Origin: Natrialba sp. SSL1 | GTDB taxonomy: Archaea > Halobacteriota > Halobacteria > Halobacteriales > Natrialbaceae | Direction of reading: 5' to 3' | DNA: 64,000 nucleotides | NCBI RefSeq assembly: GCF_001861355.1 | Contig: NZ_MASN01000018.1 | Coordinates: 248,001 to 312,000 of the forward strand | In this document: one piece after another, positions 37,074 through 41,745 of the stretch | Layout: the number at the start of each line of letters is the position of its first letter | Numbering within the stretch: the stretch's first letter is position 1 | The notes under the pieces: model-generated | What the model saw: only the letters and a program-made list of their open reading frames with translations | Databases searched by the model: none | What the model was told of the DNA's origin: nothing | Translations under genes and position numbers: made by a program

Positions 37074-38069
37074 ATGGGCAACGGTACAAACACCGGCGGG
37101 GAGCATCGATACGGCGTCGTCACCGACGCCCAGCAACGACAGTTCCGAGAACGACTGGGACTGCCCACGACAGGCGTTCCGACCGAACCGAGCCTGCAAA
37201 CGCTCCGATCGGCCGTCTCACCCGGAGAGACCGACGAACTGGCTGAGATGGGACAAGCGGTACGGGCAGACCTCTCCGACTCGCTGGACGAGGAAACACT
37301 CGAAACGGCGCTGTCGGCGATGGCCGAGCGCTTCGACCGATTTCCCGAACTGCAGCGAGACCCGATTCCCGAGTACGGAGACACACCGTATCAGGACCTC
37401 GCCGAACCGGCGTGGCGAATCGAAGACCACCTGACCGACACCTCGTTCTTCGCGAGCGCGGAGTCCAACCTGCCGTCGTTCACGCCGGCACACATCGAGA
37501 CGACGACGGAACAGCTCCTGCAACTCGAGTCCCTTCCCGAGACGCTGTCCCTGCTCGGACTGGCGCGAGACGAACAGCTCGCGCTCGTGACGAACATCGT
37601 CACTTCGAGCGAGCAGCTCTCGTGGTGGGAGCCGACGATCAACTACCCCGACGCGACCGACGAAGGGTTCGAGGACGGCGTCGACCACGAGTACGTCCCG
37701 CCGCTGCACAAACGGGCGATGGGCGGCGTCTGTCTCTGGATCGACGGCCTCGACTGGTACATCTGGCAGAACAAGGTGATGCTCACCGACGAGATGATCG
37801 AACGCGGCCTCTGGGACGTGAAAGCGATGCTCGCCGGCGCGTACCTGCTCGGCGACGCCGCCCGGCGCGTCGCAGCGGGAACGATCAGCGACGACGATCT
37901 GACGACGCTCATCACCGCCAGCACCGCGACGATGATCCTCGGCCAGGAGTCACTCGAGACGGATCTCGTTCGCGTCACTGACGAGAACCGCAAGCCGCGC
38001 CGGTCGACGCGTTCGGGTGACGAACCGCGGAACGGAACGCGGCGCGGAAACAGAAACGGAGGTGCGTGA
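37074..38069 (+). CDS. unknown protein in quinoprotein cluster
   Basis: 331-residue acidic soluble protein starting MGNGTNTGGEHRYGVVTD. Alpha-helical character with several conserved-looking tryptophan motifs (ASAESNLPSFTPAHIE, QLSWWEPTINYPD, DGLDWYIWQNKVML) and a basic/glycine C-terminus (RRGNRNGG). No signal peptide and no family recognised. Its stop lies two bases before the ATG of the PQQ-like enzyme, so the two are certainly co-transcribed and probably partners. A GTG at 37059 is an alternative start. Confidence 0.75.
   Translation: MGNGTNTGGEHRYGVVTDAQQRQFRERLGLPTTGVPTEPSLQTLRSAVSPGETDELAEMGQAVRADLSDSLDEETLETALSAMAERFDRFPELQRDPIPEYGDTPYQDLAEPAWRIEDHLTDTSFFASAESNLPSFTPAHIETTTEQLLQLESLPETLSLLGLARDEQLALVTNIVTSSEQLSWWEPTINYPDATDEGFEDGVDHEYVPPLHKRAMGGVCLWIDGLDWYIWQNKVMLTDEMIERGLWDVKAMLAGAYLLGDAARRVAAGTISDDDLTTLITASTATMILGQESLETDLVRVTDENRKPRRSTRSGDEPRNGTRRGNRNGGA
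38058..38064 (+). promoter_or_regulatory. Shine-Dalgarno site of the propeller gene
   Basis: GGAGGTG inside the end of the preceding gene, seven bases before ATG 38072. It selects this ATG over the GTG at 38066. Confidence 0.65.
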
Positions 38070-38071
38070 GC

Positions 38072-39784
38072 ATGCACCCGATGCACGACAGACCGGCCGC
38101 ACATCTGGAGGACGTCGAACTCATCCGCGAGGGACCGTACGACGAGAAACCCGGCGAGTCGGAGATCGAACAGGGAGATATCGACCAGATTCCCGAGGTC
38201 GAAATCACGCAGGAAGACCTCTACGAGACCGGCGAACGAACGGACAACTGGCTCATCTTCGGCGGCTCCTACGAGGGCCAGCGGTACTTCCCCGGCGACG
38301 GGATCACCCCCGACAACGTCGACGAGCTGGAACTCGAGTACCAACTCGAGAACCCTGCGGAGGGTGACGACCACCAGGGGACGCCGCTGGTGGTCCACGG
38401 CGATCCGCCGATCATGTACTACACGGTCGGACCGGACTCGCTCTACGCGCTGAACGCGCGAACCGGCGAGATTCTCTGGAGTCACGTTTACGAGCCGGCG
38501 ACTGGTGCTGCAGAATCCGGTGCCTCTGCCGAGCGGGGGCCGGCAGTGCTCGGCGATACGGTCTACAAGAGTACGCTCGATTACGGCGTGCTCGCGATCG
38601 ACCGCTACACCGGCGAGGAGCGGTGGTACTACAACGGCGCGTGCGTCTACCGCGACGAGCCCGCAGATGAACTGGTTCACTGGGAACTGGACTACGAGAC
38701 GTTCGGTCCGACATCGTCGTTCCCGCCACTCATCTACGAGGGAACACTGATGAAGGGGACCTACGGCGCGGAGTGGGGCGTCACCGGCTTCTTCGACGCG
38801 ATCAACCTTGACGGCGAACCACAGTGGCGGGTGAATACGACGCCGGAGGACCTCTGGGTCGGCGAGTCCTGGGTTCACGCCGGCGGCACGACGTGGGCGT
38901 CGGGTGCGATCGACCCCGAGACCGAGACCGTGATCGCTCCCTGCGCGAATCCGGGTCCCTGGTACGGGACCGTCCGGCCGGGCTGGAACCCCTACACCGC
39001 GGGGAAGGTCGCGCTGGATATCGAGACGGGCGAGTACCAGTGGAACTACCAGGACGCCCCACACGAGTGGTGGGACTACGACTCGCCGAGTCCGGCGCTC
39101 GTCTACGACGCCGACGTCGACGGCGACGAGCGTCGCCTCGCTTCCTGGCCCTCGAAGACTGGCTGGGTCTACACCGTTGATGTGGAGACAGGCGAACTCG
39201 TCGAGCGAAGCGAGGGCTACGTCCAGCACATGAACACGTGGTCGCTGCCGCCACAGGACGACATCGAGAACGCGCCGTGGATCATCCCCGAACTCGGTGG
39301 CGGCACGAATCCACAGCCGAGTTCGTACCACCGCGACAGCCGGACGATGGTCGTGACGGCGGCGAACACGCCGATGCAGTTCTCCTGGTTCGAGATCGAG
39401 TACGACGGACCGGAGTTCCCTTTCGAAGGAATGGAAACCGAGCGGGCGACCGAAGACGACGATATCGAGGAGTGGAACGGTCACCAGGGCGTTATCGCGG
39501 GGCTCGATCCGGTGACGGGCGATCTAAAGTGGCAGGAGTGGCGCGACGAGAGTCAACGAGGCGTCTCCGTCAGCACCGCTCCGGGCGTGACGTTCCTCGG
39601 CACGGCCGAAGGCGAGTTCATCGCCTACGAGACCGAGACTGGCGAGCACCTCTGGGAGGACGACATCGGTGGCAACGTCCGCGGCGGCCCAATCTGCTGG
39701 GAGGATCCGGACGAAGAGACCCACTACGTCGCGGTCTCCGTCGACGAAGAAGAGGTGCTCAACGTCTACTCACTGGAGGCGTAG
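38072..39784 (+). CDS. PQQ-type eight-bladed propeller dehydrogenase-like protein
   Basis: 570 residues resembling type I quinoprotein alcohol/methanol dehydrogenases. Family segments are WLIFGGSYEGQRYFPG (60-75), NPGPWYG with N293 at the calcium-ligand Asn position, RPGWNPYT, ALDIETGEYQWNYQ (repeated propeller motif AxDxxTGxxxW) and APHEWWDYD. In that last motif E332 occupies the place of the usual catalytic Asp (TPxDxWDY), by hand alignment. No signal peptide or haem domain. It would oxidise an alcohol or aldehyde if it binds PQQ; this is not proven. Confidence 0.8.
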   Translation: MHPMHDRPAAHLEDVELIREGPYDEKPGESEIEQGDIDQIPEVEITQEDLYETGERTDNWLIFGGSYEGQRYFPGDGITPDNVDELELEYQLENPAEGDDHQGTPLVVHGDPPIMYYTVGPDSLYALNARTGEILWSHVYEPATGAAESGASAERGPAVLGDTVYKSTLDYGVLAIDRYTGEERWYYNGACVYRDEPADELVHWELDYETFGPTSSFPPLIYEGTLMKGTYGAEWGVTGFFDAINLDGEPQWRVNTTPEDLWVGESWVHAGGTTWASGAIDPETETVIAPCANPGPWYGTVRPGWNPYTAGKVALDIETGEYQWNYQDAPHEWWDYDSPSPALVYDADVDGDERRLASWPSKTGWVYTVDVETGELVERSEGYVQHMNTWSLPPQDDIENAPWIIPELGGGTNPQPSSYHRDSRTMVVTAANTPMQFSWFEIEYDGPEFPFEGMETERATEDDDIEEWNGHQGVIAGLDPVTGDLKWQEWRDESQRGVSVSTAPGVTFLGTAEGEFIAYETETGEHLWEDDIGGNVRGGPICWEDPDEETHYVAVSVDEEEVLNVYSLEA

Positions 39785-39787
39785 ATC

Positions 39788-40399
39788 ATGCACGAGACCA
39801 ACAGCGACACCGAAACCAGCGACAAGGTACTCCGGCGCACAGTGATCAAGCTAACCGCAGCCGGCGGCGCGACCGCCGCGATGGGCGCAGGTACGGCGGC
39901 ACAGGAGGACGACGAAGACGAGGATGTCGACGATGACGAGATTCCAGTCGCAGAGGACGCACAGGGCGAGGAGATCGAAGAGGAGGCCGTCGACGAGACC
40001 CAGGCAGAGATCGTCTTCCCCGAACAAACGACGGACGGCACGAGCCTCGAAATCGAATCGGCGACGCTGCCTCGCGGGGGCTTCATCTCGATTCAGGATC
40101 CGACGCTCGCCGTACGGAACTTCGAAGAACAGGTCGAGGGCGACGAGCGGTGGTTCGACCTGACCGTTCTCGGACACTCACCGCGCCTCGACGCCGGTTC
40201 CTACGACGAGTTCACGATCGAACTCGAGGAGGCACTCGAGGAGTCGCGCTCGTACCTCGTCATGTTGCACCGAGATACGACCGGCAGCGGGACGTTCGAC
40301 TGGGTCGCCAGCCAGGGTGCGGTCGACGAGGCCTACCTGTCGGGCGGTGAGCGCGTCCGGAACCGCGTCGTCGGAGACGCATATCTCGAGATCGAGTAG
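39788..40399 (+). CDS. Tat-signal protein with DUF7282-like domain
   Basis: 203 residues. LRRTVIKLTAAGGATAAMG is a Tat-type signal, then an acidic stretch (about 38-75) and a beta-rich domain (about 76-203, IVFPEQTTDGTSLEIES ... TLPRGGFISI) resembling the haloarchaeal DUF7282/surface-protein module. A GGAGGCG site precedes the ATG. Three bases after the propeller gene, so same operon. Could be the exported partner of the two preceding signal-less proteins. Confidence 0.7.
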   Translation: MHETNSDTETSDKVLRRTVIKLTAAGGATAAMGAGTAAQEDDEDEDVDDDEIPVAEDAQGEEIEEEAVDETQAEIVFPEQTTDGTSLEIESATLPRGGFISIQDPTLAVRNFEEQVEGDERWFDLTVLGHSPRLDAGSYDEFTIELEEALEESRSYLVMLHRDTTGSGTFDWVASQGAVDEAYLSGGERVRNRVVGDAYLEIE

Positions 40400-40510: not shown

Positions 40511-41617
40511 TCAGGCGAAGTTCGCGACCCAGTACGCGGCGTAGAGTGCCACGAGGAGCACACCGTCGGCGCGCGTTACGCGGCTTCGGGCTAGCATCAC
40601 CGTCACGAGTAGCAAGCACGCAGCGAAGAACGGCCAGTGGATCGTCATCACCGCCCCGCCGGTGTCGATCGGGTGGAGGAGCGCGATCAGACCGATGTTC
40701 GCGGTCGTGTAGAAGACCGTGCTTCCGACGATGTTTCCGACGGCCAGCTGCGGTTGCCCCCGCCGAACCGGTTCGACGGTCAGGGCCAGCTCTTCGATCG
40801 ACGCGATGAAGCTCAACACCGTCGCGCCGAACGCGAGACCGGAGATGCCGAACGCGACGAAGATCCGTTCCGCGCTGAACACCGTGAGCAGCGAGCCGGC
40901 CGTCAGCCCGACGATCGCGAGGAGCGCAACGCCGAGAGTGAACCGCCCGCTGCGGTGTCCGAGTTCGGGGACGAACTCGTCGAGATCGAGGTCAAGGTCG
41001 ATATCCAGAACGCACCCGCGTGAGACGCTCTCGCGTTCGATTTTACCCGACCGATCGTCATTATCCTCGTCCACGCCGGCGCCGTTCGCCTGTACCGACG
41101 GCCCGAGATCCGTCTCCACGCTCTCCTGGACCTCCTCCGAGAGCATGTACACCGTCTCCGATCGGCTCTCGAGAACGTAGATGAGTGCGAGCAGCGGGAC
41201 GAACACCGCGACGAGGAGTACTCCCTGGCGTTGATCGATCGTCCCGCCGAGCGAGAGCACGAACGCCGGGATCGGGACGAGCAACAGCATGAACAGGTAC
41301 ACGCACGGAACGTCAATCTCGAATGGAACGAAGAGTCCCGCGAGTCCAACGGCGATCGCGAGCACGAACAGCGACTCGCCGAAGACGGTTCCGAGCGCGA
41401 GATCGGGGAGCGCAACCGACGCGGCGGTGACGCCCAACACGGCGTTCTCGAGGTCGATGCCGGCCAGAATCACGGCGAGGAAGAAGCCGGAGATCCCGAG
41501 CGAGACGGCGCTCTGGGCGACCGCCTCGATGAACACCTCGACGAACCAGATAACCAGGAGCACGCCCAGCAAGAACAGTCCGCCGAAGAGGAGGAGTCCG
41601 ACTCCCGCTGCGACCAT
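40511..41617 (-). CDS. sodium/calcium exchanger-family (CaCA) antiporter
   Basis: 368 residues in two halves of about five helices, separated by a long acidic cytoplasmic loop (about 165-225). Alpha-repeat-like motifs occur in each half: LAGIDLENAVLGVTAAS and SFIASIEELALTVEPV, with GNIVGSTVF in the second. Predicted to exchange Ca2+ or another cation against Na+ or H+. The first alpha repeat has Asp-Leu-Glu where many carriers have Ser-Pro-Glu, so ion specificity is uncertain. An upstream GTG start (41641) is less likely. Confidence 0.75.
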   Translation of the reverse strand: MVAAGVGLLLFGGLFLLGVLLVIWFVEVFIEAVAQSAVSLGISGFFLAVILAGIDLENAVLGVTAASVALPDLALGTVFGESLFVLAIAVGLAGLFVPFEIDVPCVYLFMLLLVPIPAFVLSLGGTIDQRQGVLLVAVFVPLLALIYVLESRSETVYMLSEEVQESVETDLGPSVQANGAGVDEDNDDRSGKIERESVSRGCVLDIDLDLDLDEFVPELGHRSGRFTLGVALLAIVGLTAGSLLTVFSAERIFVAFGISGLAFGATVLSFIASIEELALTVEPVRRGQPQLAVGNIVGSTVFYTTANIGLIALLHPIDTGGAVMTIHWPFFAACLLLVTVMLARSRVTRADGVLLVALYAAYWVANFA

Positions 41618-41745
41618 GGGAGTTCCACACCGTTGAACCACTTAACACTCCAACCGGTTCGAGCGCCACGTCGAGGCGGACGGGCGACCCTGACGAGCGA
41701 CGCGTGTATACTTTTCCAACGGACGACTATACCCGACTCTCGGGC

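Follow-up and report, generated by a model that had tools for sequence, protein, structure and literature searches.

The window, as we call the whole 64,000-nucleotide stretch of Natrialba sp. SSL1 DNA analysed here (contig NZ_MASN01000018.1, positions 248,001 to 312,000), contains three adjacent genes that encode an unannotated 331-residue protein (UNK), a pyrroloquinoline quinone (PQQ)-type propeller and a small protein with a twin-arginine translocation (Tat) signal. UNK and the propeller are obligate partners, known to date only from Halobacteria. The trio can be explained as an extracytoplasmic quinoprotein alcohol or aldehyde dehydrogenase with a lanthanide-type metal site, in which the propeller would fold in the cytoplasm and pass through the Tat pore bound to UNK. 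Ancestrally, UNK itself would have borne the Tat signal, the two proteins making a hitchhiker pair comparable to the gamma and alpha subunits of flavin adenine dinucleotide (FAD)-glucose dehydrogenase, and electrons would pass to a blue-copper (cupredoxin) domain that is exported by Tat and encoded in a neighbouring gene or as a fusion. UNK of the window's clade appears to have lost the signal, and the downstream Tat protein most likely took over as carrier and/or outside partner. Taken with all of its parts, from the exported quinoprotein hitchhiking on UNK to the blue-copper acceptor and the takeover by the third protein, we regard this explanation as moderately likely. The pairing, the distribution of signals, the conserved residues and the fusions are observed; complex formation, co-export, the binding of PQQ and a lanthanide and the part played by the third protein are inferred. 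The features concerned are:

37074..38069, + strand: UNK gene, 331 residues, without a Pfam or NCBIfam match at E ≤ 1
38072..39784, + strand: propeller gene, 570 residues, PF01011 at E 1.8e-43, signal peptide absent
39074..39082, + strand: codons of D335-Y336-D337, the DYD signature of lanthanide-dependent quinoprotein dehydrogenases (PMC11845868 and passages of PMC7300363)
39788..40399, + strand: third gene, Tat-signal DUF7282 protein, 203 residues, DUF7282 at E 1.5e-22

These three open reading frames had been recognized in a preliminary description made from the sequence, and their coordinates are confirmed. Its account of a contiguous cluster holds for the gaps, of 2 bases between the first and second genes and 3 bases between the second and third, but only in part for the Shine-Dalgarno sites: GGAGG precedes genes 2 and 3 at a sensible spacing for ATG 38072 and ATG 39788, whereas no such motif is seen 5' of the UNK gene. 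The propeller could alternatively start at a GTG at 38066.

The strict pairing of UNK with the propeller emerges from a search across Halobacteria. UNK is present in 51 of 292 genomes (18 of 77 genera) and the propeller, at E ≤ 1e-30, in 50 of the 292, likewise from 18 genera. For 77 of the 80 UNK matches the propeller gene lies directly downstream on the same strand; two of the three exceptions come from one genome with only 4 propeller candidates scored, and their regions (L123 and L124) do show propellers, while the third is a 55-residue fragment. Just one propeller segment has no UNK; this is the second half of a frameshift-split gene. The distance from the UNK stop to the propeller start is between −10 and 26 nucleotides in 83 of 84 loci, and the genome of the window itself holds three such pairs (contigs C18, C27 and C40). 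Conservation as a unit, which the preliminary description had expected of the trio, is thus confined to the pair, the DUF7282 third gene occurring only in the window's clade (6 of 84 loci). A sample of 393 genomes from the phylum gave no UNK beyond the order to which the window's genome belongs, the contig-wide scan of genomes being restricted to close relatives, and a search of open-licence papers turned up no description of the pair. In Natrialba hulunbeirensis (L050/L081) the propeller gene is frameshift-split near an unresolved base, reflecting either a broken gene or an assembly error, and short UNK remnants without a propeller match occur at G000:C20:8637-8777 and G193:C1:1281453-1281617.

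The distribution of export signals within the pair is uneven. The absence of a signal peptide, noted earlier for the window's propeller, extends to all 84 paired homologues: none of the 84 has a twin-arginine signal or a hydrophobic stretch in its first 60 residues, the highest 15-residue mean hydropathy at the N-terminus being 0.77. On UNK, by comparison, a Tat motif of the form RRx[FL]L[KA]xxG, with an uncharged hydrophobic stretch after it, is found in 38 of 84 loci (for example RREFLKALG...). This contrast suggests that UNK was originally the Tat carrier in a hitchhiker complex; the window's UNK looks like a degenerate copy, and co-export of the propeller on UNK is, at the level of the family, probable. 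The arrangement typical of Tat hitchhiking, where one operon partner carries the Tat signal and the catalytic partner has none, is found in the window through its third gene and in 38 relatives through UNK. Haloarchaea are known to route an unusually large share of their secreted proteins (39–55%) through Tat (PMC2945643).

In the window's UNK, residues 20–34 read QQRQFRERLGLPTTG, compared with RREFLKALGVIAGG in relatives, so that the phenylalanine and LG of the motif are kept while the twin arginine and hydrophobic run are lost. On the propeller tree (84 loci; an unrooted tree of the quick type) the UNK motif changes only twice. The first change defines the window's clade of six, in which a co-directional downstream Tat gene is present in six of six, whereas the tree neighbours with a Tat-bearing UNK have no such immediate co-directional gene. 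The second defines a clade of 40, with a downstream Tat-cupredoxin gene in 16 and no visible Tat gene in 24; in its nearest group UNK is Tat-bearing and a Tat protein is also encoded downstream. The 24 pairs (L058-L069, L073, L099, L100, L102-L104, L107 and L130-L133) retain a complete vicinal Cys-Cys and all metal ligands, and near five of these Tat-less pairs (L058, L061, L064, L065 and L067) genes read from their sequence as aldehyde ferredoxin oxidoreductase-like and Cdc48-like are found. L041 is intermediate-like, its UNK having kept the RR and the uncharged run with altered flanks. Loss of the motif from UNK, as opposed to its gain, is the simpler reading since all outlying groups have a Tat-bearing UNK.

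The comparison with L045, from another genus of the same family, places this change at a defined site. Between 29 and 46 kb the window and L045 are collinear, with glnA (84% identity), an Lrp regulator (90%), an ABC exporter (76%), UNK, the propeller and ABC importer genes in the same order. In L045 UNK has an intact Tat signal, RREFLKALGVIAGAGVAG, and the next gene is of a convergent type that encodes a Tat signal, a cupredoxin domain and a glucose/sorbosone dehydrogenase (GSDH) domain. The window has a degenerate UNK, followed by the DUF7282 Tat protein and then by a Na/Ca exchanger. One gene at this shared chromosomal site has thus lost the signal, and a different Tat gene lies next to it.

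The third protein of the window begins with a twin-arginine sequence, LRRTVIKLTAAGGATAAMGAGTAAQ, and exceeds the Pfam gathering score for DUF7282 (PF23951; 80.3 bits against 27) over residues 73–192. Within the genome its best paralogue comes from the C27 trio, where it is likewise the third protein, and no DUF7282 relatives were found in viral contigs. A plastocyanin-type copper domain (PF00127) was not found in it by a Pfam scan, so the electron acceptor of the window's enzyme would have to be encoded elsewhere; the genome has eight cupredoxin loci. Within the clade, DUF7282 stands alone in the window and L055, but is joined to a plastocyanin-type domain in L039, L041 (with the ligand motif) and L042, and in reverse order in L048. 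The preliminary description had proposed that the third protein carries the other two through the Tat system. Hitchhiking itself holds up at the level of the family, with UNK in place of the third protein as the ancestral carrier, and a general role for the latter is rejected, as it is missing from most loci and UNK bears the signal in many. For the window's copy, carriage by the third protein is plausible, the UNK motif being lost and a third Tat protein always present in the clade, though with just two independent losses to judge from; whether it is the carrier of this particular complex we consider evenly poised.

Evidence for a copper acceptor outside the cell comes from the wider family. 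The copper ligand motif HN...C.PH..M is present in Tat proteins from third or neighbouring genes of many loci, and many loci with a Tat-bearing UNK have the convergent Tat-cupredoxin-GSDH gene, which adds a second sugar-dehydrogenase-type domain; this fusion adjoins the pair in L040, L043-L047, L049-L054, L056 and L057. Six signal-less propellers, all beside a Tat-bearing UNK, have PGF-CTERM-like tails (two over Pfam's cut-off), which belong to exported proteins and are processed by archaeosortase (PMC8875312), and two others, likewise signal-less, are fused to an N-terminal plastocyanin-type domain (L127, 3029-5131; L125, 2748-5045). The tails and fusions together argue for export and for a copper electron acceptor, and it is likely, as judged from these sequence features, that the family comprises exported dehydrogenases that hand electrons to blue copper.

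The metal site of the propeller resembles that of lanthanide-dependent enzymes. Its best relatives in the PDB are quinoprotein methanol and ethanol dehydrogenases (E 6e-42). In PedH the rare-earth ion is held by Glu199, Asn281, Asp323 and Asp325, the extra Asp being the signature of lanthanide-dependent members (PMC11845868). A phmmer alignment with PedH (6zcv) pairs N293, E332, D335 and D337 of the window with N281, D320, D323 and D325, and E234 stands opposite E199 in the same alignment as counted by hand; all four ligands are thus kept (E234, N293, D335 and D337). Among the 84 homologues, D335 and D337 are present in all, as is the DYD motif, N293 in 83 and E234 in 75, with all nine exceptions in the most divergent group. 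The PQQ-stacking Trp275 and Lys362 occur in 84 of 84, and the Arg109 equivalent is invariant or nearly so. The preliminary description had read E332 as a replacement of the catalytic Asp and had raised the prospect of a different cofactor. The PedH alignment rules out such a replacement: E332 falls opposite Asp320, a residue that does not bind the metal, and D335 is the catalytic Asp. The Glu at position 332 is a conservative oddity, Asp being found there in 80 of 84 homologues. With the catalytic Asp and all lanthanide ligands intact, the argument for a different cofactor falls. Conservation of the PedH site makes it likely that the propeller binds PQQ or a lanthanide, and the window's propeller is very probably a quinoprotein dehydrogenase. 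The vicinal Cys-Cys is absent from the window's copy, where Ser149-Gly150 is found instead; it is missing from the window's clade and present in the large second clade, occurring in all members of groups B-other and C, in 6 of 7 AB members and in 3 of 31 A members.

UNK is modelled by AlphaFold2 (19 sequences) as an all-helical protein with pLDDT 84 and pTM 0.84, low confidence being limited to residues 1–12 and 310–331. Mean column identity among 23 divergent members is 49%, with 18 invariant residues. As conservation of UNK extends beyond its signal, and signal-less UNK is still modelled with confidence, its role goes beyond bearing a signal. Searches of Pfam, NCBIfam, PDB sequences and folds gave no match that would make UNK a relative of a known fold or family: the model had no Foldseek match at E ≤ 0.001, the best VIA Z score was 6.2 (to a designed repeat) with middling Z scores to helical designs and bundles, and a profile search against PDB sequences returned chance matches only. 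FAD-glucose dehydrogenase gamma was not among the fold-search lists, which is not proof of its absence.

Several observations weigh against the proposed explanation. Under a strict Tat rule, requiring 13 uncharged residues after the motif, 28 of the 38 UNK motifs qualify and the other 10 are one residue short. In the clade with 24 pairs that have neither a Tat motif on UNK nor a downstream Tat gene, export of every member is not assured. A sign test for an association between signal loss on UNK and a downstream Tat protein gave p = 1, and lacks power because there are only two independent losses. DUF7282 proteins occur elsewhere in the window's genome, so the third gene could be merely co-transcribed. 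The propeller scores 286 bits against TIGR03075 (PQQ_enz_alc_DH), under the curated cut-off of 480, and both the vicinal disulfide and the equivalent of methanol dehydrogenase Trp476 are replaced in the window's clade. Finally, pqqC is missing from all 292 Halobacteria genomes (one sub-threshold match) and no pqqE over the cut-off was found in 31 relatives, only sub-cut-off radical SAM proteins; the earlier remark that PQQ genes are not visible in the window holds, for pqqC, genome-wide. PQQ would therefore be scavenged or otherwise made. As PQQ uptake by non-producers is known in Gram-negative bacteria, and many bacteria equipped with PQQ enzymes do not produce the cofactor themselves (PMC12124388), scavenging is a fair assumption for haloarchaea.

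Alternatively, loss of the UNK signal in the window's clade may have left the complex cytoplasmic, with the downstream Tat protein simply a co-transcribed secreted protein. Signal-less pairs evidently persist, as the 24 loci without a visible Tat carrier demonstrate, and the single DUF7282 proteins elsewhere in the genome also fit such an arrangement. We nevertheless consider it unlikely, given that the immediate same-strand Tat gene is present in every locus of the clade but not beside its Tat-bearing tree neighbours, that the closest in-genome paralogue of the third protein belongs to another trio, and that most third proteins of the clade have a blue-copper domain fit to accept electrons outside the cell. 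It is less probable still that UNK is a maturation factor or structural subunit, acting in cofactor or metal insertion and exported alone while the propeller leaves by another route: conservation of UNK well past its signal, and its confident model where the signal is lost, would suit this role, but the N-termini of the propellers offer no visible independent route and adjacency of the two genes is strictly one-to-one. That the propeller either is an 'empty' quinoprotein or depends on some other cofactor, like the acidobacterial non-PQQ group TIGR04528 (acido-empty-quinoprotein), is very improbable, for although it matches this model with 219 bits, lacks the Cys-Cys and Trp476 equivalents and belongs to genomes where PQQ synthesis genes were not found, the match is far below the curated cut-off of 650 and weaker than that to TIGR03075, the metal ligands, catalytic Asp, stacking Trp and Arg and Lys equivalents are invariant or nearly so, and many of the bacteria that have PQQ enzymes are themselves non-producers of PQQ.

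The exported quinoprotein complex proposed here differs from known systems in several respects. PedH/ExaF and XoxF share the PQQ-type propeller and, for PedH, the aligned metal ligands, but the window's protein is archaeal, has no signal peptide, has no Cys-Cys in its clade, falls under the TIGR03075 cut-off, is linked to UNK and cupredoxins and belongs to a genome without pqqC. In FAD-glucose dehydrogenase, too, the Tat signal is on a small all-helical subunit, gamma, and is absent from the catalytic subunit, and gamma was itself without a close structural match when solved (PMC6719666); the catalytic subunit there, however, is a GMC flavoprotein, and for UNK the searches returned no Pfam family, FAD-glucose dehydrogenase gamma/gluconate dehydrogenase subunit 3 included, and no significant fold match. 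The PQQ dehydrogenases of marine heterotrophic Thaumarchaeota, as described in the sections of PMC7300363 consulted, are also archaeal, include some with DYD and without Cys-Cys, and have proposed blue-copper acceptors, but 15 of 21 families have signal peptides and PQQ synthase is encoded, and those sections do not mention a UNK-like partner. The third protein is a regular DUF7282 member by score, distinguished by its tie to a quinoprotein pair and by the fusion of several orthologues to a blue-copper domain. We tentatively put forward UNK as a new haloarchaea-specific family of Tat carriers for signal-less lanthanide-type quinoproteins with blue-copper acceptors, in which the Tat signal may have moved within the operon from UNK to a third exported protein (DUF7282 in the window's clade).

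Our analysis assigns a likely job to a protein family without annotation, and would add quinoproteins, and archaea with a carrier different from the known one, to the range of Tat hitchhiking. The family offers a natural series for the rules of co-export, with the signal on UNK, on UNK and the third protein, on the third protein only, or nowhere, and these could be tested even within a single genome with three pairs. The findings further point to enzymes of the lanthanide type in haloarchaea, where the supply of PQQ is unexplained; if the explanation is true, rare-earth-type alcohol oxidation would take place in extreme halophiles with PQQ from outside or by an unrecognized route. The window's copy is a derived variant, and L040 or L045 are cleaner loci for study.

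Directly past the trio, on the opposite strand (40511-41641, −), lies the gene of the Na/Ca exchanger-family protein (PF01699, E 1.2e-30). Members of its sequence cluster occur near the UNK-propeller pair in about ten loci, and such a neighbour may matter to a Ca- or lanthanide-dependent enzyme.

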